A stretch of 47,002 bases of DNA from a virus, in the IMG/VR virus record IMGVR_UViG_3300018428_000044, positions 1-47,002 of that record, one strand, 5' to 3'. The notes below the pieces were generated by a model, which made no database searches, had not been told where the DNA came from, and saw only the letters and a list, made by a program, of their open reading frames with translations. Position 1 is the stretch's first letter. Every line of letters starts with the position of its first letter. Positions 30,789-47,002 of this stretch are shown here, piece after piece. The position numbers and the translations under genes are program-made.

Positions 30789-31778
30789 ATGGCTCAGCTA
30801 AAAAATACTACCATCGACGGAACAGGTTATATTAATATACCTGTAGGCACAACAGCCCAAAGACCTAGCAGTCCTACAACGGGAATGATAAGATGGAACA
30901 CTGATTTAGATGGTGCTGAGGAGTGGAATGGATCTTCTTGGGTATTTTTAACAGAAGAGTCCACTCAAGAACCTAACATAGTTTATTATACAGCCAGAGG
31001 AAGTTCTCAATTTATTGTTCCTGAAGGTGTGAATAACTTAGAAGTACTAGTAGTTGCAGGCGGTGGCGGCGGTGGCGTCCTCGGTGGAGGCGGTGGCGGC
31101 GGTGGCACTATCCACCGTAAAGATTATCCCGTTACTCCAGGTGATACTATTCCGTTAACTGTTGGTGCAGGCGGTCCTGGACAATCAACCCCTATTTCAA
31201 ACAAAAACGGTAGCGCCTCTAGCTTTGGACCATTATCAGCAACTGGTGGCGGAGCAGGGTCAGGACATCCAGGTAACAGAGCAGGATCTGGTGGCGCAGG
31301 AAGAACTGGTGGTTCAGGTGGCGGTGCTGCATATACACACCCAAGCGGATTTGGTGCAGGAACAGACGGACAAGGATTTAGAGGCGGAAGTAATAACTCA
31401 CCAGGACCTCCACATTCATGTGCTGGCGGCGGTGGTGCTGGCGGCGATGGCGGCAGAGGTAAAGGACCTTATGGCGGACACGGTGGTGTTGGTCGTAGAG
31501 TAGGTATTACTGGAGAAACAGCTCACTTCGCAGGCGGAGGCGGTGGCGGTGGCCACGGACCACAAAGTGGAGCAGGTCGCGGAGGAATCGGCGGCGGAGG
31601 TGGCGGAGGTCGCAACCGTACCGATCCATACGGACACCATGAACAAGGCGCAGCAGGAAATGCAAACGACGGACAACCAGGTACTGGAGGTGGCGGAGGT
31701 GGCGGAGGCCACAACGGAACTAACCCTTATGGTTGGGGCGGTAAAGGCGGCCCAGGTATTGTTATTGTAAGATATTAG
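30789..31778 (+). CDS. Glycine-rich tail-tip/adhesin-like protein 1 (329 aa)
   Basis: The N-terminal about 55 residues are a fibre module (INIPVGTTAQRPSSP-x-x-G-MIRWN...EEWNGSSW). From about residue 70 a glycine-rich domain begins: F-I-V-P-E-G-V-N-N-L-E-V-L-V-V-A followed by runs of Gly (up to six or seven), with repeated G-G-G-G-A-G, and the ending GPGIVIVRY. This is the Gly_rich domain found in phage receptor-binding proteins. In Salmonella phage S16 gp38 such Gly runs fold into polyglycine II helices that display variable loops. It is therefore a candidate receptor-binding tip. The start is 3 nt after the S74 gene, with AAGAGGTAAAC spanning the junction. Confidence 0.75.
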   Translation: MAQLKNTTIDGTGYINIPVGTTAQRPSSPTTGMIRWNTDLDGAEEWNGSSWVFLTEESTQEPNIVYYTARGSSQFIVPEGVNNLEVLVVAGGGGGGVLGGGGGGGGTIHRKDYPVTPGDTIPLTVGAGGPGQSTPISNKNGSASSFGPLSATGGGAGSGHPGNRAGSGGAGRTGGSGGGAAYTHPSGFGAGTDGQGFRGGSNNSPGPPHSCAGGGGAGGDGGRGKGPYGGHGGVGRRVGITGETAHFAGGGGGGGHGPQSGAGRGGIGGGGGGGRNRTDPYGHHEQGAAGNANDGQPGTGGGGGGGGHNGTNPYGWGGKGGPGIVIVRY

Positions 31779-33755: not shown

Positions 33756-33780
33756 ATTAAAGTGCAATAAGTACTTTAAT
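33756..33780 (+). repeat. Inverted repeat covering the start codon of the radical SAM gene
   Basis: ATTAAAGTGC (33756-33765) can pair with GTACTTTAAT (33771-33780) over 10 bp (one G-U) with a 5-nt AATAA loop. The ATG at 33779 lies in the 3' arm and no Shine-Dalgarno is visible. The hairpin could lower translation of the enzyme gene on the read-through transcript. It could instead be a weak terminator, but no T-run follows. Confidence 0.55.
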
Positions 33781-35308
33781 GCATGCCTTAATCTTTTCAT
33801 TTAGCCCTCATGATCTATTAATTAGAAGCGGCGGCGCTCACAGAATAGCAACTCATTTAAGATCTCAAGGATGGGATATTGAAGTTGTTGATTTCTGTGA
33901 AAGATGGACATACGAAGAATTTATCGAATTATTCAAATCAAGAGTAACTGCTAAAACTAAATGGATTGGCATATCTCAGTTTGATTTCAACGACTATGGC
34001 GTATCTATTGCAGGTATTGCGTTTATGAAGTGGATCAAAGACAACTATGATATGCCAATAATTCTCGGCTCTCAACACATTGATAGAGCATACCCACATT
34101 GCGACTATATTATAGCAGGATATGCGGAAAATGCTATTAATGCTTTAATTGCTTATTTGTTTGGCAATGGTGCACCTAAACCAAAAATGAGAACGTTTAG
34201 AGATGTTACATTTATTGACAGTAATGCTGATTATGTAGCACATCCGTGGGACGATTGTTCGGTGCTATATGAAGATAGAGATTTTATGCACCATAATGAA
34301 TTTGGAACAACAGAGTTTAGTAGAGGTTGTAGATTTAAATGTAAATTTTGTACAACTACTATACTAGGTGTTAAAGGAAAAACAACAAGAGAACTATACG
34401 GTATTGAACACGAAATTAGGCACAACTATGATAAATTTGGAATGAAATACTATTGGTTAACTGACCCAACGTTTAATAATGAAAAAGGAAAAATAAATTT
34501 ATACGGCGATATTGTTGAAAGTTTGCCATTTGAACCTTACTTTATTGGTTTTATTAGACCAGACTTGTTAATAAGAAGTGAAGACGAATGGGAAGGACTA
34601 TTACGAATGAGATTGCTTTGTCATTTTTATGGTATTGAAACATTTAACAGTGAAACAGCAAAATTTATCGGAAAAGGAAATCCAGAAATGATCAAAGAAG
34701 GTATTGTTAGAGTTAAAGACTATTTTGAGTCTAAAACAGATCAATATCGTGCTCACTTAAATATGATAGCAGGCTTGCCTTATGAATCTAAACAATCTGT
34801 GCTTAATACAATAGATTGGATTAAAAAGCATTGGGCCAACACACAACCTGCTAGTATGGGTCCACTGGAAATACAAGACGAAAGCCATCCTTTTAGATCT
34901 AATATAGCACTAACATACGAAAATCTAGGGTATAAAGTTATTAACAAAACAATAGATGATATGCAAACAGACGAATTAAAAAATGCATGGAATGGACTTC
35001 AAGCACAAGAAACTGATGAAGGGATTCAAAGACTTGGTCATAATATATTTTGGGAAAACGAATATATGGATATCTACGAAGCACAAGTTATTGCTGATAA
35101 GGTAGATGAACATTGGAAAACAAAAAGCGGATATAATCTAAAAAAACTTACAGCAGAAGAATTACACTGGACATTTTGCGACGAAAACGGAGAACCGTTA
35201 TCGTTAGAACAAAGATTAAGTATGCGTATGGGAATGATGCAGCCTTTTATTGATAATTTTGAAATATTTGTTAATAAGTATAAACAAAAAAAGTTGAATT
35301 ATAGATGA
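33779..35308 (+). CDS. Radical SAM protein with N-terminal B12-binding-like domain
   Basis: This is a 509-aa protein. The radical SAM cluster motif C-x3-C-x2-C is at Cys184, Cys188 and Cys191 in FSRGCRFKCKFCTT, which ligates the [4Fe-4S] cluster that cleaves SAM. Residues 1-140 resemble a cobalamin-binding Rossmann domain (ATHLRSQGWDIEVVDF, KWIGISQ, PIILGSQHIDRAYPHCDYIIAGYAENAI) but lack the D-x-H-x-x-G cobalt ligand motif. The middle (TDPTFNNEKGKINLYGDIVE, IGFIRPDLL, FYGIETFNSETAKFIGKGNPEMI) fits the B12-dependent radical SAM TIM barrel. Known members methylate unreactive carbons or build sulfur bridges; the substrate here is unknown. The start is uncertain because there is no Shine-Dalgarno and the ATG is inside a hairpin. 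Its end overlaps the hydroxylase start by 4 nt. Confidence 0.8.
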   Translation: MHALIFSFSPHDLLIRSGGAHRIATHLRSQGWDIEVVDFCERWTYEEFIELFKSRVTAKTKWIGISQFDFNDYGVSIAGIAFMKWIKDNYDMPIILGSQHIDRAYPHCDYIIAGYAENAINALIAYLFGNGAPKPKMRTFRDVTFIDSNADYVAHPWDDCSVLYEDRDFMHHNEFGTTEFSRGCRFKCKFCTTTILGVKGKTTRELYGIEHEIRHNYDKFGMKYYWLTDPTFNNEKGKINLYGDIVESLPFEPYFIGFIRPDLLIRSEDEWEGLLRMRLLCHFYGIETFNSETAKFIGKGNPEMIKEGIVRVKDYFESKTDQYRAHLNMIAGLPYESKQSVLNTIDWIKKHWANTQPASMGPLEIQDESHPFRSNIALTYENLGYKVINKTIDDMQTDELKNAWNGLQAQETDEGIQRLGHNIFWENEYMDIYEAQVIADKVDEHWKTKSGYNLKKLTAEELHWTFCDENGEPLSLEQRLSMRMGMMQPFIDNFEIFVNKYKQKKLNYR

Positions 35309-35865
35309 GTAATTTTATTGAATCTTATTTTTTAGAAGATGTAACAATATGTGATAGAATAGTATCTTATATGGAAGATATGAAAGAATCTTGGGTTGAC
35401 GGTCATATAAACTATGATCAAGTTGACCTTAGTGTCAAAGACTGTAAGCAATATTACTTGCCGCCCGATACACAACTATTTCACGATTATATGGGTCAAT
35501 TACAAACAGTTGTAGATCAATATATAAAGAAATATCCATTTTGCAACACAGGTAATCCTTGGAGAGCATTAGAAACAATAAACATTCAAAGATACGAACC
35601 ACCTGGACAAGCATTTCATGATTGGCACTGTGAAAGATCCGGAACACACATGCCCGGAGCACTAAGACATCTCGTATGGATGACTTACTTAAATGATGTT
35701 GACGAAGGTGGCGAAACAGAATGGTACCACCAAAAATTAAAACTACAACCTAAAAAGGGGTTAACAACTATTTGGCCTGCAGACTGGACGCACACTCATA
35801 GAGGTCTTCCCCCTATATCAAACACAAAGTATATTTTAACAAGTTGGTTTAATTATATTGATTAG
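35305..35865 (+). CDS. 2OG-Fe(II) oxygenase, prolyl 4-hydroxylase-like
   Basis: This is a 186-aa protein. Iron ligands are visible as H-x-E at His108/Glu110 (FHDWHCE) and distal His165 in THTHRGLPP. Lys175 in NTKYILTSWF is the likely 2-oxoglutarate anchor. MTYLNDVDEGGETEW is the classic strand of the P4H/EGL-9 family. The acidic ligand is Glu where Asp is usual, which is uncommon; some Fe/2OG enzymes tolerate Glu. Proteins of this size in marine phages are annotated as prolyl hydroxylase-like but have no proven substrate. The start codon overlaps the radical SAM stop by 4 nt, so the two are coupled. The stop overlaps the stop of the converging halogenase gene by 4 nt. Confidence 0.85.
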   Translation: MSNFIESYFLEDVTICDRIVSYMEDMKESWVDGHINYDQVDLSVKDCKQYYLPPDTQLFHDYMGQLQTVVDQYIKKYPFCNTGNPWRALETINIQRYEPPGQAFHDWHCERSGTHMPGALRHLVWMTYLNDVDEGGETEWYHQKLKLQPKKGLTTIWPADWTHTHRGLPPISNTKYILTSWFNYID

Positions 35866-37454
35866 TTATGAATGTATCTTTTTAGATACTCGCATAGCGA
35901 TAATTCATTTTCAGCAGCATCCCACCATTTTTTTACTTTAAGTTCTCTTTCTGTAAAGTATGGGGCAAATGTTTGAGATAAAGGCTTTGGCTCTGTAAAT
36001 TCTTGATTAATAATATTAATTCTATCAATAAAGTGATGATTCATGCCTACAGACACCCAAGGAATGCCAACATACGGATCAATTTCTGCTTTAAACATTT
36101 TATTATTTTGATATTGAAAGAATCCAATACTAGCAGTAGGTGTTAAGTCGACCATGGTAGGATCATACACTCTGTCGTTATTTGCCTTCCAATATTCGCT
36201 GTCGTTTCTTTTACTAAATGAATAGTGCATAGCAACAAATTCAGTAAAGTTTTGAAATACACCTCGAATGGCAGTATTATATACATCTCTGTCAAATTGA
36301 TTAACACTGCCTGACAGTAAAATTTTTACTAATTTTTCTAAGAAAATATGTACTGAAAATAACCCATTGGATTCTAAAGGCTCAATAAATCCAGCACTAA
36401 GACCTAGTGCTACAACATTCTTTACAAATGTTCTTCTATGTATTCCTACACGCATAGGAATATCTTTAAATTCTAAACTATCAACTTCTTCTCTAGTTCT
36501 TGGACATACCATCTTATTAGACATTAAATGTTGCTTAAATTCTTCTTTAGCATCTTCAGGATTGATAAATTTATCACTGTAAACATAACCAGTGCCGATC
36601 CTTTCCCAACTAGGTATATTCCAAACCCATCCATTGCCAATAGCAGTACAATTTGTAAAAGGCTCTAGTTCGTTTTCTTTATCTTTGTAAGGTATTCTAG
36701 TAGCCCATGCTCTGTTGTTTGGTAACATATCACTGTAAGAAATAAATTCTTCATTCAATGCTTCACCTAACAATAAACTTTTAAATCCTGTGCAGTCAAC
36801 AAATAAATCAGCAGTAACAGTTTCGCCATTAGTTAAAGTTAGTTTTTCTATGCCTACATCTCCTGTAGTAATGTCTACAACAGTTGAAGGTATAACTTTT
36901 ACACCTCTTGGCAAACAATAATTTTCACGTAACCAAAGACCAAACTTAGTAGCATCAAAATGAAATGCTGTATCATACTCAGGGTTAAATAACCCAAAAG
37001 TTCCATTTCTGTTATTTGTAAATTTATTTTTTTCGTAAAGCGCGGCATTAGGATAGTAATAGCGAGCAAAGTCTTCGTTTGAAATATTAGGATACAATGC
37101 TTTTTTGTAATACCAATCTTCTATACCTTGTAGTGTTCCTTCAAAGTCCGGTTGTCCAAATGGATAATGGAATCCTCCCGAATCTTTTTCATAGAAGTCT
37201 GTAAACTTGATACTCATTTTATAACTAGCATCAGTATGTTTCATAAAATCATATTCATTTATTTCTAAGAAATTACAGTAATTTCTTATAGATAGTAATG
37301 TACTTTCTCCTACGCCTACTATAGGATGATCAGGACTTTCAATAACGCTAATATCGTAATCAGGAAAAAATTTTACTAGCATAGCAGCCGACATCCAGCC
37401 TGCACTTCCTCCTCCTACTATTACTACTTTTTTTAAATTTTTAATTATAGGCAT
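35862..37454 (-). CDS. Flavin-dependent tryptophan halogenase 1
   Basis: This is a 530-aa protein, the usual length for the PrnA/RebH family. The FAD-binding G-x-G-x-x-G site is VVIVGGGSAGWM (residues about 10-21). Catalytic Lys79 in DASYKMSIKF falls at exactly the number of the essential lysine of PrnA and RebH. The signature W-x-W-x-I-P is intact at 276-281 (WVWNIP). GLSAGFIEPLES near 351-362 holds the Glu-Ser pair that is active-site in the family. With reduced flavin, O2 and halide it would make HOX, held on the lysine, to halogenate an aromatic substrate. No flavin reductase is present in the window. It follows the DUF6445-like gene by 1 nt on the same strand. VirX1, a cyanophage halogenase, is the nearest known precedent. 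Confidence 0.92.
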   Translation of the reverse strand: MPIIKNLKKVVIVGGGSAGWMSAAMLVKFFPDYDISVIESPDHPIVGVGESTLLSIRNYCNFLEINEYDFMKHTDASYKMSIKFTDFYEKDSGGFHYPFGQPDFEGTLQGIEDWYYKKALYPNISNEDFARYYYPNAALYEKNKFTNNRNGTFGLFNPEYDTAFHFDATKFGLWLRENYCLPRGVKVIPSTVVDITTGDVGIEKLTLTNGETVTADLFVDCTGFKSLLLGEALNEEFISYSDMLPNNRAWATRIPYKDKENELEPFTNCTAIGNGWVWNIPSWERIGTGYVYSDKFINPEDAKEEFKQHLMSNKMVCPRTREEVDSLEFKDIPMRVGIHRRTFVKNVVALGLSAGFIEPLESNGLFSVHIFLEKLVKILLSGSVNQFDRDVYNTAIRGVFQNFTEFVAMHYSFSKRNDSEYWKANNDRVYDPTMVDLTPTASIGFFQYQNNKMFKAEIDPYVGIPWVSVGMNHHFIDRINIINQEFTEPKPLSQTFAPYFTERELKVKKWWDAAENELSLCEYLKRYIHN

Positions 37455-37455
37455 A

Positions 37456-38061
37456 CTATATCCTTGTTAATGGTAAAGACGTACTATCAATCCATTCTAC
37501 AAAAAATGGTTGTGTAAGTCTACTTTTATCAGCCTTAAAATTCGGTGCATGCCACTGATTAGCATTATACAACACACATCTATTCTTTACAGCTTCAATA
37601 GATATAGATTTTTCAAATAATGAATGATTCTCTTGAATATCTATTTTGTTTATTATACTTTCTAATTGATATTTGTGCAACCTATGATTGTCAACACCGT
37701 CTTTTACAGTGTAAATATCAGTTCCTCCTGTGCCTGTTTCTAAGTATAATACACCTGCAATAAGACAGTTATTATCTTGATGTATTACTTTAACAAAATC
37801 TTCTCTGCTTATTAAGTGAAAAGAAGTGTCTACAGACCAGGTTAACGGAGTTTCATAGAATACACTAAACAGTTTTTCACAAAAATAATCAAATAACTCA
37901 GGATTAATTTCATGTAAGCGTTTAGAACGTTTACCTGGATAATTTTCTTCGTTTTCAGTAAACGAGACACTACTAGCATATGCAAAGACCTTGTCAAAGT
38001 CATCATAAAAGTTGTCTATCACAGTTAACGGAAATCCGCCATCGGTAAATTCAGTTTTCAT
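37456..38061 (-). CDS. DUF6445-like Fe(II)/2OG oxygenase-fold protein
   Basis: This is a 201-aa protein. The opening PLTVIDNFYDDFDKVFAYA, then YPGKRSKRL, VIHQDNN, GVLYLETGTGGTDIYTVK and NRCVLYNANQWHAPNF give the order of motifs of DUF6445, a family with the double-stranded beta-helix of 2OG oxygenases. The putative iron triad is His94-x-Asp96 and His171, with Arg181 as the possible co-substrate anchor. It lies immediately upstream of halogenase 1 in the same minus-strand transcript. A second DUF6445-like gene heads the other halogenase cassette at the right end, so the pairing recurs. The substrate is unknown. The ribosome site is weak (TTGGA directly before ATG). Confidence 0.7.
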   Translation of the reverse strand: MKTEFTDGGFPLTVIDNFYDDFDKVFAYASSVSFTENEENYPGKRSKRLHEINPELFDYFCEKLFSVFYETPLTWSVDTSFHLISREDFVKVIHQDNNCLIAGVLYLETGTGGTDIYTVKDGVDNHRLHKYQLESIINKIDIQENHSLFEKSISIEAVKNRCVLYNANQWHAPNFKADKSRLTQPFFVEWIDSTSLPLTRI

Positions 38062-38092
38062 TCCAAGTAACTCATTATGTTAGTGTATAAAT

Positions 38093-38100
38093 GATAAATA
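38093..38100 (+). promoter_or_regulatory. T4-type late promoter box, plus strand
   Basis: GATAAATA lies in the divergent intergenic region, 47 nt before the ATG of glycine-rich protein 3. Its core overlaps the left arm of an inverted repeat (38094-38101 with 38112-38119). Confidence 0.7.
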
Positions 38101-38119
38101 TTGTAACAAAGATATTTAT
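38094..38119. repeat. Inverted repeat carrying divergent late promoters
   Basis: ATAAATAT (38094-38101) and ATATTTAT (38112-38119) are perfect complements separated by 10 nt (TGTAACAAAG). The symmetry places one late-promoter core on each strand. Confidence 0.75.
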
Positions 38120-38120
38120 T
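38113..38120 (-). promoter_or_regulatory. T4-type late promoter box, minus strand
   Basis: Read on the minus strand, the bases are AATAAATA, matching NATAAATA, 52 nt upstream of the DUF6445-like gene that starts at 38061. Together with the plus-strand box at 38093-38100 it forms a back-to-back pair that would drive the adhesin one way and the halogenase pair the other. Confidence 0.6.
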
Positions 38121-38146
38121 GAAGAGGTTTTTACAGGTGAGAATAA

Positions 38147-40411
38147 ATGGCTAAACTATCTAACTTAACAATCAACGATACTGGAGCATTAACACTACCA
38201 GATGGTACTTCTGATCAAAGACCTGGATATGTAGTTAAAGTTTTCACAGCAAATGGCCCAGGGAACTTTACAGTACCAACTGGCGTAACTGAAGTTGATG
38301 TATTAGTTGTTGGCGGTGGTGGCGGATCTGCTGGCATCGGCGGTGGCGGCGGTGCAGGCGGCATGATTGACAGGCCAGGATTTCCAGTTACTCCAGGCAG
38401 CACTATTCCTTATAGCGTTGGCGCTGGTGGTGCACCTGGTGGAACTTATCCAGGACCAGTAGGATCAAATGGCAGTAACTCAGTATTCGGAAGTTTAACA
38501 GCACTCGGTGGCGGCGGCGCTGGTTCTTGGAACAATAATACATCAAGTCCAGGAGGTTCAGGGGCTGGTGGTCCTGGAACCCCAGGCACAGGCGCAAACG
38601 GCGGCGCTGGTAATCAACCAAGTCAATCCGGCGACAGCGGTGCATACGGATTCGGATATCCTGGTTCAAGAGGTGGTACTAACCCTAGTTCAAATTCAAC
38701 CCCTGGCTCAGGAACATATACCGCTGGCGGTGGAGGCGGTGCAGGTGCTGCAGGTGGCCATCCATCACTTTCTGGACCAGGAAATACCAGTACAACAAAT
38801 GCAGGACGCAAAGGCGGAGATGGAAGAAGTAGTTCAATTACCGGAGTGCCCGTTTACTATGCAGGCGGTGGCGGTGGCGGAAGTCACAATAGCGGATATC
38901 GATCGCCTGTAACAACAGCACTAGGCGGTATTGGCGGTGGCGGTCGAGGTGCCTCTGTTGATTGGTATTACGATCAAATGGGATTTTATAATTTTCCTGC
39001 AACTGTGTATGGCGGAAGTACTTTAGGAAACTATAATCCTCATTGGCAATGGTACGGTAGAGGACAAGGAGAACCAGGAAGAGTCAACACAGGCGGCGGC
39101 GCTGGAGGCGGCTTCTATTACACCGGCGGTACTGGCGAAGGTGGAACAGGTGGCCCAGGTGTTATCATAGTTAGATACAGAAATCCAAAAGGTCAATTAT
39201 CTGTTGCGTCAATTAGTGGCGGCACAGAGCTTAACACTTCCTCTGCTCACGGAGTAGTAACTAACGAAATTTGGGTTCCAAATGCAAGCGGACTAGGTGT
39301 TGTAGCTGATACAAAATATTATGTTGTAGAAATTGTAAGTGCAACAGCATTTAAAGTATCAACTATAAAAGGCGGAAGTCCTGCAACATTTTCAAACGGA
39401 AGCCTAGGCGTAACAGGAACAGTTCTTACAGCAGATCCTGAAAACGGAATGACACGTTATAACACTGCTGGCGGCTATATAGAAATTTATGTAGACGGTG
39501 TTTGGAAACCTCTAAAACGATCAGTAGTTAAATTTACTGCTACAGGATTACATAACTTTAAAGTACCAGAAGGTGTAACACACGTAGATGTTCTAGTTGT
39601 TGCGGGCGGCGGATCAGGTGGAGAACTTGGCGGCGGTGGAGGTGCTGGTGGTTTAATCTACGAGCAAAATGTACCTGTTGCTCCAGGTGGAAATGTTCCA
39701 GTATATGTAGGAACAGGCGGACATAACGAAATGACGCATACACCGCACCACGGTATAAGAAAAGGAGAACCTTCAAGGTTTGGAGGATTCGAAGCATACG
39801 GCGGAGGCGCAGGTGCAAACCATCCTGCTGCTGCAAGATCACAACCTTATAGACACAATTTCTGGGATAACTGGGGCGATGCAGGCGGCGGAGCTTCTCC
39901 TAACCAAAATTCGGGCGGATCACCTGGCGGATCAGGTGGCGGTGCTGCATATACACACCCAGGTGGTGCAGGCAAAGGAACTCCAGGACAAGGATACCCA
40001 GGAGGTACTACTCCGGGATCACCTCCACACTCAAATGCAGGCGGCGGTGGTGCAGGTGCTGCTGGAGGAAACGGCGGTGGCCCAGTGGCTGGTCCAGGCG
40101 GAGACGGTAGAGTAATTAATATTACTGGTACAAATGTTCACTATGCCGGCGGTGGCGGCGGTGGCGCCCACGGACCTCAAGGAAGTTCAGCACCAGGTGG
40201 TGCCGGTGGTGGCGGAGGCGGAGGCCAACGCAACAACATTAATACAGGCTACGGAGCAGTATATAGTTTCCATCAAAGCTCAGGTGGCACATACGCTTCA
40301 CCTGGTGCAGACAACACAGGTGGTGGAGGCGGTGGCGGTGGCCACAACAGCTCGAACCCATACGGTCTTGGTGCAAGAGGCGGCCCAGGTATTGTTATTG
40401 TAAGATACTAA
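38147..40411 (+). CDS. Glycine-rich tail-tip/adhesin-like protein 3, two modules (754 aa)
   Basis: It starts MAKLSNLTINDTGALTLPDGTSDQRPG. Module 1 (about residues 28-345) opens VKVFTANGPGNFTVPTGVTEVDVLVVGGGG and ends GPGVIIVRY. Between the modules, about 350-465, is an inserted beta-rich segment (STAHGVVTNE-like, KYYVVEIVSATAFKVST) plus a fibre element GMTRYNTAGGYIEIYVDGVW. Module 2 (about 470-754) opens VKFTATGLHNFKVPEGVTHVDVLVVAGGG and ends GPGIVIVRY. The middle insert resembles an element of phage fibres that also occurs in giant protein D (NQAVKFTDS...KVYYVKDI...TELTVS). Expression is from the late promoter at 38093-38100, with AGGTGAGAATAA as ribosome site. A receptor-binding role is inferred. 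Confidence 0.75.
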   Translation: MAKLSNLTINDTGALTLPDGTSDQRPGYVVKVFTANGPGNFTVPTGVTEVDVLVVGGGGGSAGIGGGGGAGGMIDRPGFPVTPGSTIPYSVGAGGAPGGTYPGPVGSNGSNSVFGSLTALGGGGAGSWNNNTSSPGGSGAGGPGTPGTGANGGAGNQPSQSGDSGAYGFGYPGSRGGTNPSSNSTPGSGTYTAGGGGGAGAAGGHPSLSGPGNTSTTNAGRKGGDGRSSSITGVPVYYAGGGGGGSHNSGYRSPVTTALGGIGGGGRGASVDWYYDQMGFYNFPATVYGGSTLGNYNPHWQWYGRGQGEPGRVNTGGGAGGGFYYTGGTGEGGTGGPGVIIVRYRNPKGQLSVASISGGTELNTSSAHGVVTNEIWVPNASGLGVVADTKYYVVEIVSATAFKVSTIKGGSPATFSNGSLGVTGTVLTADPENGMTRYNTAGGYIEIYVDGVWKPLKRSVVKFTATGLHNFKVPEGVTHVDVLVVAGGGSGGELGGGGGAGGLIYEQNVPVAPGGNVPVYVGTGGHNEMTHTPHHGIRKGEPSRFGGFEAYGGGAGANHPAAARSQPYRHNFWDNWGDAGGGASPNQNSGGSPGGSGGGAAYTHPGGAGKGTPGQGYPGGTTPGSPPHSNAGGGGAGAAGGNGGGPVAGPGGDGRVINITGTNVHYAGGGGGGAHGPQGSSAPGGAGGGGGGGQRNNINTGYGAVYSFHQSSGGTYASPGADNTGGGGGGGGHNSSNPYGLGARGGPGIVIVRY

Positions 40412-40426
40412 TGGAGAAATAATTAA

Positions 40427-40645
40427 ATGGCAAGAACATTAACACACGAAGTTCAAGAACATGGCGTTTTGGTTAATATACATCAAGACGGTGTTGAAAT
40501 ACTAGACAATTTATTCCCTTCAATTCCTGCGTTTGTCGAAAATGCAGTTGCTGATATAGACGAGGAACTAAATATGAATGGACACAATATTTTAACCACA
40601 GTTGAAAAACAGACTATCCAGTCTTGGATTGATGGATTAGAATAA
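40427..40645 (+). CDS. Small acidic protein of unknown function (72 aa)
   Basis: MARTLTHEVQEHGVLVNIHQ is followed by DGVEILDNLFPSIP and the C-terminal LTTVEKQTIQSWIDGLE. The ribosome site GGAGAAATAA at 40413-40422 is strong, so the gene is probably expressed. It shares a pattern with the next gene: E-x-G-x-V-x-V-x-x-x-x-DG-x-x-x-L, FP, and L-T-x-x-E-x-x-x-x-x-x-WI near the end. The two are likely tandem paralogues. No family was recognised. It lies between a glycine-rich adhesin gene and a JmjC/cupin-like gene on one transcript. It could be a tail accessory protein or, more speculatively, a substrate of the neighbouring modifying enzymes. Confidence 0.65.
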   Translation: MARTLTHEVQEHGVLVNIHQDGVEILDNLFPSIPAFVENAVADIDEELNMNGHNILTTVEKQTIQSWIDGLE

Positions 40646-40661
40646 TTAAGGAGAAATAATA

Positions 40662-40886
40662 ATGCGTTCATTTGTTTACAGACCAGAAGAAGGTGAAGTA
40701 CACGTTGATCTAGTTGCAGAAGATGGTACAACAGTACTAACTACAGCAAACTTTCCAACTGAAGATTCAACTACAGAATTCTTTGAGCAAACTTGGAATT
40801 ATCATTGCGAAGAAGATGGTGTAGATCCTTTAACAGAAGAAGAACTAGCAGCATACAGTACTTGGATTAGAACACAAATATCATAA
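40662..40886 (+). CDS. Small acidic protein of unknown function (74 aa), paralogue of the previous one
   Basis: It is strongly acidic: MRSFVYRPEEGEVHVDLVAE, then DGTTVLTTANFPTED, FFEQTWNYHCEEDG and LTEEELAAYSTWIRTQIS. The ribosome site is the same GGAGAAATAA (40650-40659) as in the previous gene. The E-G-x-V-x-V, DG and FP spacing and the terminal T-E-E-x-x-x-x-x-x-WI match the 72-aa protein. Its stop overlaps the start of the cupin-like gene (TAATG), so the two are translationally coupled. The function is not known. One cysteine and three tryptophan or tyrosine positions near the C-terminus could be modified, but that is conjecture. Confidence 0.65.
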   Translation: MRSFVYRPEEGEVHVDLVAEDGTTVLTTANFPTEDSTTEFFEQTWNYHCEEDGVDPLTEEELAAYSTWIRTQIS

Positions 40887-41467
40887 TGTTTGTTTCTCCA
40901 TTACCTGATTTGCCTCAAGATCAGATGGCGGAAGTTTTAGATCACGTTCACAAGGCAAAAATTAATGTTACAGAAGAACTAATGCTTGAGCGGCTATCTG
41001 ATAGATATCGATGGCCGCAGTATTATAACACGGGTGCTCCAACTGTAGAACGAATTGTCGGCGATGATGGACTAAAAGCACAGGACTTCTTTTGTAACGA
41101 TAGACATATAGATAGAAATAAATTTCTTGATTATTATAATCAAGGATATACGTTTGTAATATCGGGTGTTCAATATCTATTTAACGACATTACAAATCTT
41201 ACAATATATCTAAGCAACATATGGGATACAGAAATTAATGCTAACATATATATTTCAAAAGGCAAAAAAGTAGTTTCTTACCCTTATCATAATCATCATT
41301 ATTCTGTTATAATTAAAAATATTTACGGAAAATCTAAGTGGCTTATAAACGACCAAGATCGTGTTTTAGAAAATCAAGATATTTTCTATGTGCCAAAAGA
41401 AATGATGCACGGAGTTAAGGAAATAGAGGATTTAAAGTTGTCTATAACTTTTAACTTGCATAGTTAA
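40886..41467 (+). CDS. JmjC/cupin-like Fe(II) oxygenase-fold protein (193 aa)
   Basis: The core is INANIYISKGKKVVSYPYHN, then HHYSVIIKNIYGKSKWLI and IFYVPKEMMHGVKEIEDLKLSITFNL. This aligns by eye with the cupin_4/JmjC hydroxylase layout H-x-D...G-x-K-x-W...D-x-x-Y-V-P...H. Metal ligands would be His135, His137 (in place of the usual Asp) and His175; Lys or Asn residues of KNIYGKSKW would bind the co-substrate. The His-x-His replacement makes classical 2OG hydroxylase activity uncertain; it could be a different cupin. It begins in a TAATG overlap with the 74-aa gene. Its stop overlaps the converging methyltransferase stop by 4 nt. Confidence 0.65.
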   Translation: MFVSPLPDLPQDQMAEVLDHVHKAKINVTEELMLERLSDRYRWPQYYNTGAPTVERIVGDDGLKAQDFFCNDRHIDRNKFLDYYNQGYTFVISGVQYLFNDITNLTIYLSNIWDTEINANIYISKGKKVVSYPYHNHHYSVIIKNIYGKSKWLINDQDRVLENQDIFYVPKEMMHGVKEIEDLKLSITFNLHS

Positions 41468-42015
41468 ACATACCACATCCAGGTATTATTTACATTACGA
41501 ACATCTATATTATTTTTTCTAGCGTATTCTAGAATAGCATCTTGCACAGGAATAGTTTCCCAATCGTGTCCTGATACTATACCTCCTTTACGTACTTTTT
41601 TAGACCAACGTTCTATCAAAGGAATAATATTATCAATTTCGGTCCAGGCATCTAAGTACACAAAGTCTAAAGATTCGTCATCAATCTTTGTTGCTGCTAT
41701 TTCTTCGTAATGTTCGACTAATTCTATTTTATCTTCTACACCTGACCATTTAATATTATGCTGTGCAGTAAGTTTTACCATACTGATATCTTTATCATCA
41801 AAAAATCTATCATAAATCGAATCGTAATATGGCTTAAATGCATCGATAGCATAAATTTTAGATATACTTTTACATTTTTGTGCTAATGATAAACTGCATT
41901 GTGCATAGTATGCACCTATCTCTGCACCAGTTAAATTTTCACCTAATGTATCTATTACGTAAACTAAATTTCCAGCATCAGTTCCGTTAAAATCATATGG
42001 AGTTGTATTGTTCAT
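41464..42015 (-). CDS. Class I SAM-dependent methyltransferase (183 aa)
   Basis: Motif I, GAEIGAYYAQCSLSLA (residues about 30-45), and the acidic end of strand 2 (IYAIDAFKPYYDS, Asp58) form the SAM-binding Rossmann core. LDFVYLDAWTEIDNIIPLIERW, then VRKGGIVSGHDW, is the usual Methyltransf_24-type strand 4/5 sequence. The substrate is unknown: proteins of this family methylate sugars, small molecules or peptides. It is the last gene of the minus-strand cassette, 1 nt after the 2OG oxygenase gene. The short length suggests no separate substrate-binding domain. Confidence 0.8.
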   Translation of the reverse strand: MNNTTPYDFNGTDAGNLVYVIDTLGENLTGAEIGAYYAQCSLSLAQKCKSISKIYAIDAFKPYYDSIYDRFFDDKDISMVKLTAQHNIKWSGVEDKIELVEHYEEIAATKIDDESLDFVYLDAWTEIDNIIPLIERWSKKVRKGGIVSGHDWETIPVQDAILEYARKNNIDVRNVNNTWMWYV

Positions 42016-42016
42016 G

Positions 42017-42637
42017 TTATACCTTTAATGTTAAATTGCCAGAAACTGATATTCTATAATCGTCACTAGTAGTAAATGGAGTAACTGTATGCATTAGTTT
42101 GTTTGGAAACATTAACAATTTGCCTTCGTAACTTTTATCTACTGGCAGTGTATGTGTATGAATTCCTCCTAACACATCAGTATAAACAAATTGAAAACTT
42201 GCTGCTTTATTTTCAATTGCTTTACTTCCGGGAGAATTTTTATACTCGTCTTCAATGTCATATGGAATATTAGTCCATAATACAAAACTCATTATTCCTG
42301 AATGTCCGTGTAACGGATTAAATTCATTTTTTTGTTGAAAGTTAACCCATAGTCCGCCCAGTCCTATTGGAACGTTTCTATCGAGAAAGTCGAAGTTTTT
42401 TAGATAAGAAAACTCTCTATCGTAATCGTATAGTGCTTCCATTACATAAGGTTCTATAACACTTCTACTATCTTTAAGTATGAATTCTTTATCTATATGT
42501 CCTGCAAGAATATGGTTAGCAGGCTCTGCAGATTCAAAATCATTTTGTATAGTTCTAATTTCTTTTCTAACGTCTGCTAGTATGTCTCTAGGAACATCGC
42601 CTAGAAAGAACCCTAAATTGTAAAAATTATACAGCAT
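42017..42637 (-). CDS. Putative 2OG-Fe(II) oxygenase (2OG-FeII_Oxy_5-like, 206 aa)
   Basis: The C-terminal half shows the conserved order of PF13759-type proteins: LWVNFQQKNEFNPLHGHSG (candidate ligands His110 and His112), MSFVLWTNIP, GGIHTHTLP, then GKLLMFPNKLMHTVTPFTTS (distal His183) and DDYRISVSGNLTL (Arg195, co-substrate anchor). This family is common in marine T4-like phages, without proven substrates. Its ATG overlaps the end of the upstream gene by 1 nt. The N-terminal about 90 residues are helical and probably carry substrate specificity. Confidence 0.8.
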   Translation of the reverse strand: MLYNFYNLGFFLGDVPRDILADVRKEIRTIQNDFESAEPANHILAGHIDKEFILKDSRSVIEPYVMEALYDYDREFSYLKNFDFLDRNVPIGLGGLWVNFQQKNEFNPLHGHSGIMSFVLWTNIPYDIEDEYKNSPGSKAIENKAASFQFVYTDVLGGIHTHTLPVDKSYEGKLLMFPNKLMHTVTPFTTSDDYRISVSGNLTLKV

Positions 42638-43362
42638 TACTCTTTCATTGTCCTTTTAAGATTTTTCTTATGACGTCCTGTAAAACTACTATGGTAGCTA
42701 TAAGACAAATGTATGTTATCCCATTCTTCTCTAGAAATTAAATGATTCTTAATTTTTAATCTTTTATCACTGAGGGGAATAATGTGTGTAATAATATCTT
42801 CAGAAAACAGTTCAATTCTTTTGTTTCTTCTTGGTAATAACATATTAACATGTGTACTATGTTGATCTTTATAGTTAACTATACCTGGAGGAACATTTAG
42901 ATCAAGAAGTCTATCTCCTAAGTTCCAAGTAGCAGGTGCAAATAAAAAGTCAACGCCGGACTTTTCTTTTAACAGCCACGGAGACAACATTTTAACATGA
43001 ATCATGTTTTCAAAGTTACCGTCAAATTGTTGTCTTGGATGATCAACTATAGGAAATACTTCATCTGCAGAAAATTGATATTTGTATTCGCCTGTATCTT
43101 TAGTTTCTAGAATTAAGTCTGCCCACATTGGGACACATAATCCTCTTTTATATAAAGATATTAGTCCGTCACATCTTTTTAATGTACCTGCTTGATATTT
43201 TATTCCGTTACCATTATCAACAGTAAAGGAATTGTGCATCTTTTTGTACCAGTTAGGCATTGCTTGACTTGCAGGCAGCACTGGAAAGTGCTTGTGTAAT
43301 GCAGGATTAAATGTAAATGCATCAACAACAATAGTTGACGGCTTTATAAAAATATCAAACAA
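42637..43362 (-). CDS. Conserved phage-type protein of unknown function (241 aa)
   Basis: I recognise the style but not a named family: PASQAMPNWYKKM, then GTLKRCDGLISLYKRGLCVP, MWADLILET, a ML-SPWLL stretch and a late PPGIVNYKDQHSTHVNMLLP. Similar sequences occur beside oxygenase genes in marine phages. The order C-D/P-x-x, hydrophobic strands, SPW/SPF and PPG/PGKF is shared loosely with the adjacent 237-aa protein, so the two may be distant paralogues. The C-terminus is very basic (TGRHKKNLKRTMKE), possibly binding nucleic acid or acidic partners. It overlaps the neighbouring genes by 1 nt and 8 nt, so it is a full member of the cassette. Confidence 0.6.
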   Translation of the reverse strand: MFDIFIKPSTIVVDAFTFNPALHKHFPVLPASQAMPNWYKKMHNSFTVDNGNGIKYQAGTLKRCDGLISLYKRGLCVPMWADLILETKDTGEYKYQFSADEVFPIVDHPRQQFDGNFENMIHVKMLSPWLLKEKSGVDFLFAPATWNLGDRLLDLNVPPGIVNYKDQHSTHVNMLLPRRNKRIELFSEDIITHIIPLSDKRLKIKNHLISREEWDNIHLSYSYHSSFTGRHKKNLKRTMKE

Positions 43363-44068
43363 CTAAATTTTCCTTTATTTTTTTAAGAACAATTTTGTTA
43401 GTTCTTGATTGCTTAAATCTTTTGTAACGATCTGCTAATGGAACAAATTTTTCCCATTGAGATGATGTTCCACATGTAGATGCTATTCTTTGCAACTCTG
43501 GAGTCATTTGAAATCTATGTAATTTAATTTTCTTTTCAGTCTCAAAAGAAACATATGCAAGAGGCTCGTCTTGTTCAAGTTTAAGTTCGTTGCCCCAAAG
43601 ATTATATTCTAAGTTTATAACTCTAAACCAAGAACCTATGTTAAATTTTCCAGGAACAACTGAACCATATTTTTGATGTTTAGCAGGATGAAAAAATGGC
43701 GAAGTTAGCGACATTGTAATATCTTCATCACTAAAAAATAAAAAGCTCATTCCGTATGTTAATAGCGTAGTGCCGTTAATACAAGGCTTATGTACTATAT
43801 CAGGTCTAATATAATCTTTACTATGAATGTTTACATTGTTTCCATCTACTATAAAATGGCTTTCTAATGGATTTTTAAGTATTACAGTTTTATTAGCAAC
43901 ATTCTGAAAAGCAGGACAAAAGAAAAAGTTATTTTCTTTAACATTTGTAATTCTTTCTTTTTGCCAAGCACTATAAAGTGTTTCAAGATCAGAATACATA
44001 ATATTCCAATCTCTTTCAGCATCAAAAAATACTGGCGCCCAATATATATTGCTAATTCTATCTGCCAT
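43355..44068 (-). CDS. Conserved phage-type protein of unknown function (237 aa)
   Basis: It opens ISNIYWAPVFFDAERDWNIMY, then FFFCPAFQNVANKTVILKNP, MSFLFFSDEDITMSLTSPFF, VVPGKFNIGSWFRVINLEYN and FETEKKIKLHRFQM. The pattern is known to me from hypothetical proteins of cyanophage genomes. A mostly beta-sheet fold is likely and no catalytic motif is obvious. The C-terminal about 25 residues are basic. It overlaps the halogenase 2 gene by 11 nt upstream and the 241-aa gene by 8 nt downstream, which argues for co-expression with halogenase 2, perhaps as a partner or substrate-presenting protein (inference). Confidence 0.6.
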   Translation of the reverse strand: MADRISNIYWAPVFFDAERDWNIMYSDLETLYSAWQKERITNVKENNFFFCPAFQNVANKTVILKNPLESHFIVDGNNVNIHSKDYIRPDIVHKPCINGTTLLTYGMSFLFFSDEDITMSLTSPFFHPAKHQKYGSVVPGKFNIGSWFRVINLEYNLWGNELKLEQDEPLAYVSFETEKKIKLHRFQMTPELQRIASTCGTSSQWEKFVPLADRYKRFKQSRTNKIVLKKIKENLVV

Positions 44069-45533
44069 ATTGTGTTCTTATTTCTCTAAGATATTGTTTG
44101 TGTGTAATTTTTGGTACAGTTTCATCTTTAATAATGTTATTTCTTACCATTTCATCTGCTTTAATTTTTAAAGTAATAGGCAATGCTTCGAATTCTTCCT
44201 TAATACTTTTAACATCAAATAAACTTAGTCCGTTTAGTATAAAAATATGATGATGTTCTGTAAAAAGCACATATCTCGATACTTTACTAAAGTCTTCTCT
44301 AACAGGAATTTTGTGTTTCCACATTGTTAATTTCTGTTTTAAAGAATCTGGTAATTTAAATCCTTTTAAATCTTTCCAAAATTGACTATTTTCTTTATTT
44401 GTTATATAGTGTAGTATAACAAAGTCTCTTATGTTTGTCAAGATATCATTAACCGATTCGTTATACTCTTTTATAACTACATCGTTATAATTAACAAGTT
44501 TGTGCATTAGTAAGAATGCTTGTTGTATGCTTGTTCCTATAGAAGTTGCTTCTAATGGTTCTACAAAACTTGCACTAAGTCCTACAGCACAACAGTTATT
44601 AACCCAAGGTGTATCAATGGCTCCGGGATCAAATTCAAACTGATTTCGTACTTCTATTTCGTGTCCTAAATAATCTTCAACTTCTTTTTTTGCTTGCTCT
44701 GGTGTGATATAGTTTTTGTCAAAAATATAACCATTGCCCCATCTCCCCCAAGTTGGGATTCTAAACATCCATCCTGAGTCCATAGCTCTTGCAATCGTCC
44801 ACATATTGTAGTTTTCAGTATCAGGTGTTTGAAATACAATAGCACTATTCATTTTTAAATATTCAGAATAAGAGTTCCATTTTGCACCTAACTTGCCAAT
44901 CAATAATCGTTTGAATCCTGTACTATCGATATAGAAATCATACTTGTATTCTCTTTTTCCTTTGATGGTGCTAATATTATTGTTTTCGTCTAGAGTAATA
45001 TCTTCAATAATATCGTCGAACAATTCGATGCCAAATTCTTTTGCTTTGTTTTCTAACCAAATATTAAGACTATTAGTATTAAAATGGTATTGTCTAGTTA
45101 CGAAATCGTTTTTATGTTTTAAAAACCATGCATTAACTTCGTTATCCCAGTTAAGTTTAGAACTTAGATGCTTTGACGACTTTCCTTCACCTATCAATTT
45201 TCCGTAAAGTAAACTGTACATAGCATTAGTAGAAGAATAATCATCGTGAATGCAATGTAGGTAATCTTCGTCGGCCCAGTTTTGAAACATTATTCCTGAT
45301 TTCAGAGTTGCATCACATTGAGAAATAACTTCTTTAAAATCAACATCAATAAAATCAATAAAATCTGCCCAGTGTTCCGTAGAACCCTCACCTACCCCGA
45401 TAATTCCTATCTTAGAAGATCGTATTAAATCTATTTTTCGATCAGGAAATCTTTTCTTCAAAATAAGGGCGGTAACAAACCCTGCTGTACCGCCTCCTAC
45501 TATACATATTGATTTAGGATTTTTGCAAGTCAT
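44058..45533 (-). CDS. Flavin-dependent tryptophan halogenase 2, divergent
   Basis: This is a 491-aa protein. The FAD site is ICIVGGGTAGFV, followed by IGVGEGST. The likely catalytic lysine is Lys78 in DATLKSGIMF, aligned with Lys79 of PrnA. The signature W-x-W-x-I-P is altered: residues 255-260 read WMFRIP, so the second Trp is Phe. GLSASFVEPLEATSIG near 340 supplies the Glu region. The protein is about 40 aa shorter than halogenase 1 and only moderately similar, so the pair is probably not a recent duplication. The Trp-to-Phe change may alter substrate range or halide use. Its start lies inside the end of the 113-aa gene (20-nt overlap), an unusually long overlap for this cluster. Confidence 0.88.
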   Translation of the reverse strand: MTCKNPKSICIVGGGTAGFVTALILKKRFPDRKIDLIRSSKIGIIGVGEGSTEHWADFIDFIDVDFKEVISQCDATLKSGIMFQNWADEDYLHCIHDDYSSTNAMYSLLYGKLIGEGKSSKHLSSKLNWDNEVNAWFLKHKNDFVTRQYHFNTNSLNIWLENKAKEFGIELFDDIIEDITLDENNNISTIKGKREYKYDFYIDSTGFKRLLIGKLGAKWNSYSEYLKMNSAIVFQTPDTENYNMWTIARAMDSGWMFRIPTWGRWGNGYIFDKNYITPEQAKKEVEDYLGHEIEVRNQFEFDPGAIDTPWVNNCCAVGLSASFVEPLEATSIGTSIQQAFLLMHKLVNYNDVVIKEYNESVNDILTNIRDFVILHYITNKENSQFWKDLKGFKLPDSLKQKLTMWKHKIPVREDFSKVSRYVLFTEHHHIFILNGLSLFDVKSIKEEFEALPITLKIKADEMVRNNIIKDETVPKITHKQYLREIRTQYGR

Positions 45534-45855
45534 CCTTGATCACCTCAATTAAATGATTTAGACGTCTAATGTCATCGTTAACTGCGCATAACTGATATTG
45601 CATAACATCTGCGCCTTCACCTTCCATTATTAGTCCTTGCATCGAGATGAAAATTCCAGCCATTTTACAATACTTTGCAAATTCGCTGTCTTCCATATTA
45701 TAAGTAGGTAATTCTTCTACTTTAAATCTTGCTTTAATTTGACGTGCTGGTTCACTTAATCCACTTTCTTCTAGGACCTTAGCAATTTCTGCAGCGGCCT
45801 CTTTGTGATCGTCAGATATTGTACCGTAATCAAATAAATGTTTTTTTATTGTCAT
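45514..45855 (-). CDS. Small helical protein of unknown function (113 aa)
   Basis: MTIKKHLFDYGTISDDHKEA is followed by predicted helices (AAAEIAKVLEESGLSE, FAKYCKMAGIFISMQGL) and a C-terminal amphipathic helix (NDDIRRLNHLIEVIKDDLQ) that could form a coiled coil. It has no family that I recognise. It overlaps the halogenase 2 start by 20 nt and follows the 246-aa oxygenase by 3 nt, so it is co-translated. A structural partner or adaptor for the halogenase or oxygenase is a reasonable guess. The ribosome site AGGAGC lies 10 nt upstream of the start (minus strand). Confidence 0.55.
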   Translation of the reverse strand: MTIKKHLFDYGTISDDHKEAAAEIAKVLEESGLSEPARQIKARFKVEELPTYNMEDSEFAKYCKMAGIFISMQGLIMEGEGADVMQYQLCAVNDDIRRLNHLIEVIKDDLQKS

Positions 45856-45858
45856 AGT

Positions 45859-46599
45859 TTAAGCTCCTGTTTGATATAACTTTGGTATACCCAATATTGG
45901 GCGACCATCTAATTTATTTTTAAAAGGTCCTGATTCGTCATTATAGTGTAAGAATACTTGTGCATGATTTAGTCCATGAAATTTTTCTCTCCAGTGATCA
46001 ACTTCGCAACCTCTGTAAATAATCATATCTCCTGGTTTTAGATGAATAGGAACACCGTCTGGGTCATTCTTTGTTTCAACATACATCGGCCAATCGTAAC
46101 CTTCCCATTCTTCACCTTGAAGATTAGAAGTATTATATCCTAAACATAGTGTTGTACTAATTTCGCAACTTTCTCTATCTCTATGACGCTTTAATATTTC
46201 GCCTTGCTGATACAGTCTCCAATAACTATATGTAGGCATTACAGTATGTCCTGTGTATGCAGATATGGATCTAGCACTAGTTGCAAGTAGTGTATCCATA
46301 AACGGATCGCCATAACAATTATAACTAATTGGTGCTTGCTCGTCGCCAAATTGTCCATCCCATTCAGGTCTGTAATCTTGCTTTGCATTCATTTCCATAA
46401 AGTCTGCTCGTTGTGCTTTAACAATACAGTATTGATAAATTAAGCCAGCCATATTTTCGTCGATAAAACCTTTAATAACAAGATAATTGTTATCTTTAAA
46501 ATATGCTCTTGTATTTTCATACAATTCATCGACACTAGCAGTATATGATGTAGTTTCTGCTGTTTGTTCTTCAACAGTTTCTTCAGTGTTATTTTCCAT
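45859..46599 (-). CDS. 2OG-Fe(II) oxygenase (246 aa)
   Basis: An acidic N-terminal tail of about 22 residues precedes the fold. YLVIKGFIDENMAGLIYQYC is the usual entry helix. YSYWRLYQQGEILKRHRDRE gives the H-x-D ligands His139 and Asp141. HLKPGDMIIYRGCEVDHWRE gives distal His202, followed by AQVFLHYN. The pattern is that of phage and bacterial 2OG oxygenases whose distal element reads H-W-R-E-x-x-x-G. The substrate is unknown. Its ATG (46599) lies within the end of the upstream DUF6445-like gene (11-nt overlap); AGGAAAA is the ribosome site. Confidence 0.85.
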   Translation of the reverse strand: MENNTEETVEEQTAETTSYTASVDELYENTRAYFKDNNYLVIKGFIDENMAGLIYQYCIVKAQRADFMEMNAKQDYRPEWDGQFGDEQAPISYNCYGDPFMDTLLATSARSISAYTGHTVMPTYSYWRLYQQGEILKRHRDRESCEISTTLCLGYNTSNLQGEEWEGYDWPMYVETKNDPDGVPIHLKPGDMIIYRGCEVDHWREKFHGLNHAQVFLHYNDESGPFKNKLDGRPILGIPKLYQTGA

Positions 46600-47002
46600 T
46601 TTCTTTTCCTATTCTATCATAGTTAGTATTAAAAAAGAATACTTGTGTTAGTCTACCAGTATCTTTGTCATGCCCAAAACCAGGCGTAACGCTACGATGG
46701 CATAAGTTTCCTTTAAACATTATTACTCTATTAAAAACATTACCAACAAATGTAATTAATTCCCATTCTCCGTCTAGTGTTTTAATTTCGTCTTGAGTAC
46801 ATATATAAACACCACTTTCTTTATGTCTATAAATTCCTGTACCTGAGTCTGCTGGCGCATTCGGAGTTAGATAAAGTATAGCAGTCCATTCATTAGGATC
46901 TACATGTATCCATGTTTCGTCGCCTTCAACACATAATTGAAATTTAGCATTATCGTTAGTTTGCCATTCGCCTGTGTAAATGTTTCTTGAATCATCCCAC
47001 TC
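46589..47002 (-). CDS. DUF6445-like Fe(II)/2OG oxygenase-fold protein, partial (C-terminal 137 aa)
   Basis: The gene enters from beyond the right edge and ends at the TAA complementary to 46589-46591; the start is outside the window. My translation includes GDETWIHVDPNEWTAILYLT (H-x-D ligands), SGTGIYRHKESG, NVFNRVIMFKGNLCHRSVTP (distal His) and an Arg in TGRLTQVFFFN. The order matches the 201-aa protein at 37456-38061, and both families' members precede a halogenase in their operon. It overlaps the next gene by 11 nt. Confidence 0.75.
   Translation of the reverse strand, partial: EWDDSRNIYTGEWQTNDNAKFQLCVEGDETWIHVDPNEWTAILYLTPNAPADSGTGIYRHKESGVYICTQDEIKTLDGEWELITFVGNVFNRVIMFKGNLCHRSVTPGFGHDKDTGRLTQVFFFNTNYDRIGKENGK

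Follow-up and report, generated by a model that had tools for sequence, protein, structure and literature searches.

In marine T4-like phages, the stretch between the tail-fibre and neck genes, hypervariable in pelagimyophages and cyanomyophages, is known as a host-recognition cluster with fibres, glycosyltransferases and radical S-adenosylmethionine (SAM) cassettes (PMC7029224). Phage-encoded flavin-dependent halogenases, and the many 2-oxoglutarate (2OG) oxygenases of marine T4-like phages, are without an accepted role. Published suggestions tie the 2OG genes to nitrogen metabolism or DNA repair (PMC3037559) and the halogenases to antibiotic protection (PMC2984593) or host metabolites (PMC10452541). 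The active site of the viral halogenase VirX1 is open, lacking the helical lid seen in Thal (PMC7948982), and the enzyme accepts many small aromatic compounds for halogenation in vitro (PMC8407142). Here we analyze IMG/VR record IMGVR_UViG_3300018428_000044, positions 1-47,002, a stretch of virus DNA of 47,002 nucleotides hereafter termed the window, in which halogenase and oxygenase-like genes surround a glycine-rich adhesin gene. We judge it an even chance that this island is a fibre-tip tailoring cassette within the host-recognition region of a marine T4-like phage, inherited together with gp38-like glycine-rich adhesins.

The island spans window positions 33,779-47,002 and is packed end to end around adhesin gene H (Table 1). 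Alongside a radical SAM protein and a methyltransferase, it encodes two flavin halogenases and six proteins with oxygenase features, namely three classical 2OG oxygenases, a pair of DUF6445 proteins and one JmjC/cupin protein. Its open reading frames (ORFs) abut or overlap by a few bases except in the surroundings of H. The left part of the window contains gp7-like baseplate-wedge genes with relatives in Prochlorococcus and Synechococcus T4-like phages, followed by a fibre gene of 2,986 amino acids, an S74 fibre gene and two glycine-rich adhesin genes. A second contig, L003, matches window positions 41,347-47,002 at 99.98% identity and then runs beyond the window end, completing the DUF6445 protein S (201 amino acids) and adding the 2OG oxygenase T and then plus-strand virion genes. 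One of the latter matches a baseplate wedge-fibre connector and another, of 1,656 amino acids, a virion structural protein, so that the island has fibre genes at one end and virion genes at the other. Gp7-like baseplate genes and giant fibre genes precede the island and a connector-like gene follows it, a location that may be that of the host-recognition cluster, the neck genes falling beyond these contigs. The position between baseplate or fibre genes and neck genes is found in S-RIM44, Sf-CH11 and S-SSM7.

An initial annotation of the window had listed these gene classes, and Pfam and PHROG matches recover all of them at about the positions it gave, including both halogenases, the two-module adhesin in the middle of the cassette and the two adjoining adhesins. 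Its three unknown proteins correspond to N, O and Q. The three 2OG oxygenases that it recognized (E, M, R) stand, and the count is too low: the DUF6445 and JmjC proteins are also Fe/2OG-like, bringing the total to seven with T, which lies outside the window.

Co-inheritance of the enzyme block with glycine-rich adhesins is evident from viral contigs. Halogenase searches returned 54 viral loci, onto which the window proteins were mapped. The order T-S-R-Q-P-O-N-M-(L)-(K)-J-I-adhesin H-F is repeated in contigs L028, L030 and L039, and in part in L095, which was found from N; the island is thus neither a chance assembly nor a chimera. A chimeric contig was rejected on this repeated order and on the L003 overlap. 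L028 and L030 run on into further adhesin genes, and in the remaining loci the sets are reshuffled, with as many as four or five halogenase ORFs lying between fibre genes (labelled a10, a11 or Gly-rich) and virion genes (labelled U, V and W). A separate search of viral contigs with N yielded 30 further loci, including short ones and some from contigs already in the set, with a halogenase in the flanks of 16 and a glycine-rich gene in those of 9. In the halogenase tree, fibre-linked copies occur in many clades, and the linkage label needs 14 changes versus 30.5 when shuffled.

Named phages have the same arrangement. Two or three Gly_rich_2 genes, one small gene, one or two halogenases and a run of 2OG genes follow one another in a single direction in syn9, Syn10, P-TIM40, S-RIM44, Sf-CH3, S-CREM1, Sf-FR1, P-RSM6, S-SZBM1 and S-WAM1. 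The enzyme run of these ten phages includes JmjC in nearly all cases and N and DUF6445 often; in syn9, most genes from the glycine-rich fibres to the end of the block encode a halogenase, N, JmjC, DUF6445 or 2OG protein. A halogenase lies within 2 kb of a Gly_rich_2 gene in 10 of the 14 named halogenase phages that have Gly_rich_2, compared with 0.94 expected from rotated halogenase positions (P 7e-10, a value that overstates independence because the genomes are related). Halogenases are present in all 20 phage records with a syn9-gp38-type fibre and in 14 of the 15 with N. Outside this group, the halogenase of S-SRM01 has a tail-fibre gene on one side and an 'adhesin tip' gene on the other, and in actinophage DSL-LC01 one sits two genes from collagen-like genes.

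A natural swap is seen among isolates of S-RIM44, four of which have fibre-linked halogenases, N and the gp38-type fibre, while four are without all three. Isolates Np_42 and W2_10 are approximately 95% identical in DNA outside the region, and the giant virion and fibre genes inside it have diverged to 65-70%. Before its neck genes, Np_42 carries three glycine-rich genes, two halogenases, N, 2OG-type genes, a DUF6445-like gene, JmjC and a 'ferrochelatase'; the corresponding stretch of W2_10 consists of a fibre-like gene unrelated to these, a small gene and a single 2OG gene. The exchange between these isolates took in fibre tips and enzymes alike. Contig order, the 10 of 14 genomes, the 20 of 20 records and this swap all support the linkage of halogenases and oxygenases to glycine-rich fibre genes that the initial annotation had put forward.

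Genes that share a hypervariable region may also travel together by hitchhiking, with fibre and metabolic genes being swapped jointly in the absence of any joint function. The fibre-to-neck region is a known hypervariable island of pelagimyophages and cyanomyophages (PMC7029224), and some halogenases sit elsewhere. Against this explanation, the same families recur (as in the syn9 block) in place of a random metabolic set, gene order is kept around a central adhesin, and fibre-linked halogenases arise in many clades; we consider it rather unlikely.

Table 1. Features of the island and its surroundings, with positions in the window unless L003 is named.
Feature	Description	Position	Strand	Evidence
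A	Tail-fibre protein, endosialidase-type chaperone (Peptidase_S74)	29952..30785	+	Pfam E 3.5e-10
B	Glycine-rich adhesin, one Gly_rich_2 module	30789..31778	+	PF21722 E 4e-17; phrog_2295, phrog_863
C	Glycine-rich adhesin, two Gly_rich_2 modules	31791..33755	+	PF21722 E 1e-38
D	Radical SAM, CxxxCxxC, probable B12-binding N-terminus	33779..35308	+	PF04055 E 5e-9; PF02310 E 5e-4
E	2OG-Fe(II) oxygenase, prolyl-4-hydroxylase-like	35305..35865	+	PF13640 E 2e-10; H108/E110/H165/K175 conserved
F	Flavin-dependent halogenase, VirX1-like	35862..37454	-	PF04820 E 6e-102; best solved match VirX1, 339 bits
G	DUF6445, 2OG-oxygenase-like	37456..38061	-	PF20043 E 2e-15; H94/D96/H171/R181 invariant in family
GATAAATA	Late-promoter-like motif, upstream of adhesin H	38093..38100	+	
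AATAAATA	Late-promoter-like motif, upstream of G and F	38113..38120	-	
H	Glycine-rich adhesin, two Gly_rich_2 modules, island centre	38147..40411	+	PF21722 E 8e-30
I	Small conserved protein after adhesin H	40427..40645	+	Relatives, same place, in L028, L030, L039, L095
J	Small conserved protein after adhesin H	40662..40886	+	Relatives in L028, L029, L030, L039, L095
K	JmjC_2/cupin	40886..41467	+	PF08007 E 2.6e-5; H135/[D or H]137/H175
L	SAM methyltransferase	41464..42015	-	PF13578 E 8e-7
M	2OG-Fe(II) oxygenase (2OG-FeII_Oxy_5)	42017..42637	-	PF13759 E 6e-10; H110/H112/H183/R195 invariant
N	phrog_7084, divergent dUTPase-like fold, frequent halogenase partner	42637..43362	-	phrog_7084 E 9e-17; neighbour maps
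O	phrog_17480, distant relative of N, same fold	43355..44068	-	AlphaFold2 confidence 80; Foldseek dUTPase E 5e-4
P	Flavin-dependent halogenase	44058..45533	-	PF04820 E 9e-87; Trp-5-halogenase 223 bits vs VirX1 140
Q	phrog_10937, no function assigned	45514..45855	-	E 7e-19
R	2OG-Fe(II) oxygenase	45859..46599	-	PHROG match alone, phrog_2954 E 3e-46; H139/D141/H202 invariant, 28 sequences
S	DUF6445, 2OG-oxygenase-like, cut by window end	46589..47002	-	PF20043 E 3e-8; L003 8340-8945; H97/D99/H166/R181
T	259-amino-acid 2OG oxygenase, outside window, next after S	L003 7561-8340		phrog_61

Judging from their sequences, both halogenases look catalytically intact. The catalytic lysine (K79) and glutamate (E358, F numbering) are present in all 130 viral halogenases of this virus group, and the flavin site GxGxxG reads GGGSAG in F and GGGTAG in P. 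The WxWxIP motif is WVWNIP in F and WMFRIP in P, where the second tryptophan is replaced by phenylalanine as in 44 of the 130 viral sequences. F scores 69 bits higher with VirX1 than with its second-best solved structure (270 bits), whereas P belongs to another clade and is closer to Trp-5-halogenases. A precedent for action on protein is QhpG, an enzyme of halogenase-like fold that hydroxylates protein-bound tryptophan (PMC7876137). Campylobacter phage CP21 has a halogenase-like gene (L078 4995-6194) and no detectable Gly_rich_2 gene.

The usual reading in the literature is that such enzymes make or alter small molecules, for instance halogenated indole or host metabolites, as auxiliary metabolism (PMC10452541, PMC2984593). 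The in vitro range of VirX1 (PMC8407142) and the resemblance of P to free-tryptophan halogenases agree with it, as do halogenase copies among replication or photosynthesis genes: that of S-H35/S-B64 adjoins SbcC and a peptidase, and that of S-MbCM6 adjoins psbA. This reading nevertheless appears quite improbable for the island, since a biosynthetic core (non-ribosomal peptide synthetase, polyketide synthase or precursor synthase) is absent, the block is swapped with fibre tips, and those 2OG enzymes that stand nearest to known families resemble protein hydroxylases.

The oxygenase-like proteins also look intact, with metal-ligand positions retained in all seven (E, G, K, M, R, S, T). HxD/E...H ligands occur in E, G, R, S and T, and family alignments assign a basic 2OG residue in E, G, S and T. 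M has the form HxH...H with arginine. K has HxH...H in the window, aspartate being found at the middle position in 11 of 14 family members, and no basic residue is assigned. The nearest solved structures to E are prolyl 4-hydroxylases (E 4.5e-7), and the syn9 member of the K family matches JmjC_2 at E 1e-16. Characterized JmjC_2 members are protein hydroxylases. On the basis of the conserved ligand positions, the DUF6445 proteins and the PHROG 'ferrochelatase' are likewise oxygenase-like. The labels 'ferrochelatase' (phrog_2954), 'minor coat protein' (phrog_1644) and 'DNA endonuclease V' (phrog_274) all cover oxygenase-like proteins here, and conserved oxygenase ligands were seen in phrog_2954 and phrog_1644 proteins.

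Promoter-like motifs provide an indication of timing. The motif NATAAATA, which resembles the T4 late promoter TATAAAT (PMC3037559), has 11 copies in 55.5 kb, nine of which are found 28-177 bases ahead of a gene start on the same strand (P 2e-10); the genes behind these nine are nearly all virion genes. Two motifs, GATAAATA and AATAAATA, are placed back to back in the gap that separates adhesin H from the G-F pair. Among relatives, the motif precedes virion genes at 45 of 134 starts and T at 5 of 11, compared with 1.9% expected. The sequence TATAAATA is depleted in the whole window (1 copy versus 7.9 expected), consistent with avoidance of stray late promoters. Scans for sigma-70 promoters (75 versus 58 expected) and terminators (10 versus 11) were uninformative.

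The halogenase relatives found in bacteria show 30-36% identity and frequently belong to Caulobacterales, Sphingomonadales and Alteromonadales. An exception is a VirX1-like halogenase (L124 6001-7443, 53% identical) on a contig assigned to a deltaproteobacterial metagenome-assembled genome, which is possibly phage DNA. Direct neighbours of the bacterial genes encode a TonB-receptor plug domain in 21 of 81 cases, SapC in 6 and DUF6445 in 2 (five loci by our own model). These outer-surface neighbours raise the alternative that the cassette modifies the host surface, either an outer-membrane receptor or lipopolysaccharide, to exclude other phages or free progeny, its proximity to fibres then reflecting receptor co-evolution. 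Glycosyltransferases in the same pelagimyophage region have been read in this way (PMC7029224), and S-SSM7 has heptose-metabolism genes beside its halogenase. We think it improbable: neither a glycosyltransferase nor an exported enzyme was identified in the island of the window, late-type motifs fit virion proteins better than early exclusion, and soluble flavin and 2OG enzymes would have to reach precursors within the cell.

Other island proteins are less readily assigned. N and O, which are distantly related, form a two-branch family with a dUTPase-like fold that is tied to halogenase islands. Their profiles match at E 2e-5 with a probability of 76%, and the AlphaFold2 model of N (predicted local distance difference test 84.6, the confidence measure also given for O in Table 1) matches dUTPase in Foldseek at E 3e-4, the fold matches of both being weak (template-modelling scores of about 0.3-0.38 by query length). 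The N profile touches the dUTPase of white spot syndrome virus at E 0.2, just over motifs III and IV. Motif III of the window N reads GIVNYKDQ versus GxIDxxY in dUTPases, with the catalytic aspartate and tyrosine lost; N and O are therefore not filed as dUTPases, a working enzyme being unsupported for the window N by this degenerate motif. Our guess is a trimeric, non-catalytic binding or scaffold role. Four tandem N-like genes lie between runs of 2OG genes and a halogenase in L115-L118. Q is kept directly upstream of P in L028, L030, L039, L094 and L095. For D, the initial assignment to the B12-type radical SAM proteins holds for the radical SAM domain; the B12 type is likely and falls short of proof, with PF02310 scoring 20.4 bits against a cut-off of 32.1 and weak matches to B12-radical SAM models. 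No relatives of D were found among the viral contigs and phages searched, and it is therefore treated as a private addition and not a core part of the island. This contrasts with the corresponding region of pelagimyophages, from which radical SAM cassettes have been described (PMC7029224).

The presence of radical SAM, halogenase, methyltransferase and 2OG enzymes is typical of pathways that mature ribosomal peptides, and the cassette could conceivably act on a peptide encoded inside the island by I or J, which are conserved between the adhesin and the JmjC gene. Both proteins are acidic and conserved throughout, and were rejected as precursors of ribosomally synthesized and post-translationally modified peptides since they show no split into leader and core. 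They are also absent from most other islands, where the enzymes are kept, and no protease or exporter was identified. Peptide maturation is thus a highly improbable explanation.

A glycine-rich adhesin is the best-supported substrate, a conclusion to which we give about even odds. The cassette would act late in infection, while virion proteins are made, with the host reducing the flavin that the two halogenases use. Up to seven Fe/2OG-oxygenase-like enzymes and the methyltransferase would modify side chains, joined by the radical SAM protein in this phage only. The most likely substrate would be newly made fibre or adhesin protein, halogenated on tyrosine or tryptophan and hydroxylated on proline, lysine, asparagine or histidine, in the loops and the glycine-rich lattice. 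The outcome may be tuned receptor binding or stability. Together, the findings suggest that these phages may chemically alter the host-contacting part of their virions. It is somewhat doubtful whether this extends to marine T4-like phages covalently halogenating and hydroxylating their own receptor-binding fibre tips through a dedicated, co-inherited cassette.

Several points weigh against fibre-tip tailoring, in addition to the relatedness of the genomes behind the P value. What we observe is the gene content, the retained catalytic residues, the linkage, the exchange along with fibre tips and the late-type motifs between adhesin and halogenase genes; from these we infer the activity of the enzymes, their joint action and a virion adhesin as their substrate. 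Because the region is known as a hot spot for insertions, the linkage could be partly positional. Scattering of the enzymes apart from adhesins, named in the initial annotation as the contrary outcome, is found in part: halogenases lie apart from fibres in S-H35/S-B64, S-MbCM6, P-SSM2 and S-PM2 and as third copies in S-RIM44 and Sf-CH3. Tryptophan makes up only about 1% of the glycine-rich proteins, and P is similar to enzymes that act on the free amino acid. Most enzymes of the window are encoded on the strand opposite the adhesins. In the window, T, which opens the long minus-strand operon, lacks the exact late motif in front of it, and late expression of this operon is therefore extrapolated from relatives.

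The conserved linkage to one adhesin type, with which the enzymes are swapped together, directs attention to the fibre tips of cultured phages. If the tailoring reading is true, adhesin chemistry would add to amino-acid sequence a further level at which host range is controlled, and viral halogenases of the VirX1 type would have virion protein as their natural substrate class. Confirmation would likewise correct the PHROG and GenBank labels that hide oxygenase-like genes.

The locus combines features of several known systems. With the host-recognition cluster, or hyperplastic region, of marine T4-like phages (PMC7029224; PMC2984593), it has in common a position among structural genes, near tail fibres and a hypervariable mix of enzymes; in the literature searched, no defined, conserved set of halogenases, 2OG/JmjC/DUF6445 oxygenases and a protein of dUTPase fold tied to a single adhesin type is described. 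VirX1 (Syn10, PDB 6qgm) is the closest solved match of F, and the Syn10 and syn9 halogenases similarly follow glycine-rich fibre genes and head an oxygenase run. It has been studied as a small-molecule halogenase, and in the literature searched, a scope outside which VirX1's original description falls, neither its gene neighbourhood nor a halogenase-to-tail-fibre linkage is considered. Bacterial tryptophan-halogenase loci are alike in having tandem halogenases and DUF6445 beside the gene of an outer-surface protein (TonB-dependent receptor, SapC), and differ in that fibres, N/O proteins and large oxygenase sets were not detected there.

The adhesins themselves are comparable to the gp38 adhesins of T-even phages (Salmonella phage S16, PP01), glycine-rich fibre-region proteins with variable segments between glycine runs. 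This likeness, which may extend to homology and to the polyglycine-II fold of the gp38 type, comes from matches to Gly_rich_2, phrog_863 and phrog_2295. To our knowledge, T-even gp38 has not been reported as enzymatically modified. A search with the glycine-rich adhesin as query was uninformative, returning one viral locus and no phage match, partly owing to low-complexity filtering. The glycine-rich fibre proteins of S-SSM7 (L067 757-3147) contain approximately 11% cysteine, unlike all others listed. Mimivirus is a giant virus that has no halogenases and modifies collagen instead of Gly_rich_2 proteins. Its hydroxylases L230 and L593 (PMC9546862) nevertheless offer a parallel to the proposed cassette, as virus-encoded 2OG enzymes that act on the virus's own repetitive glycine-rich collagen-like proteins.

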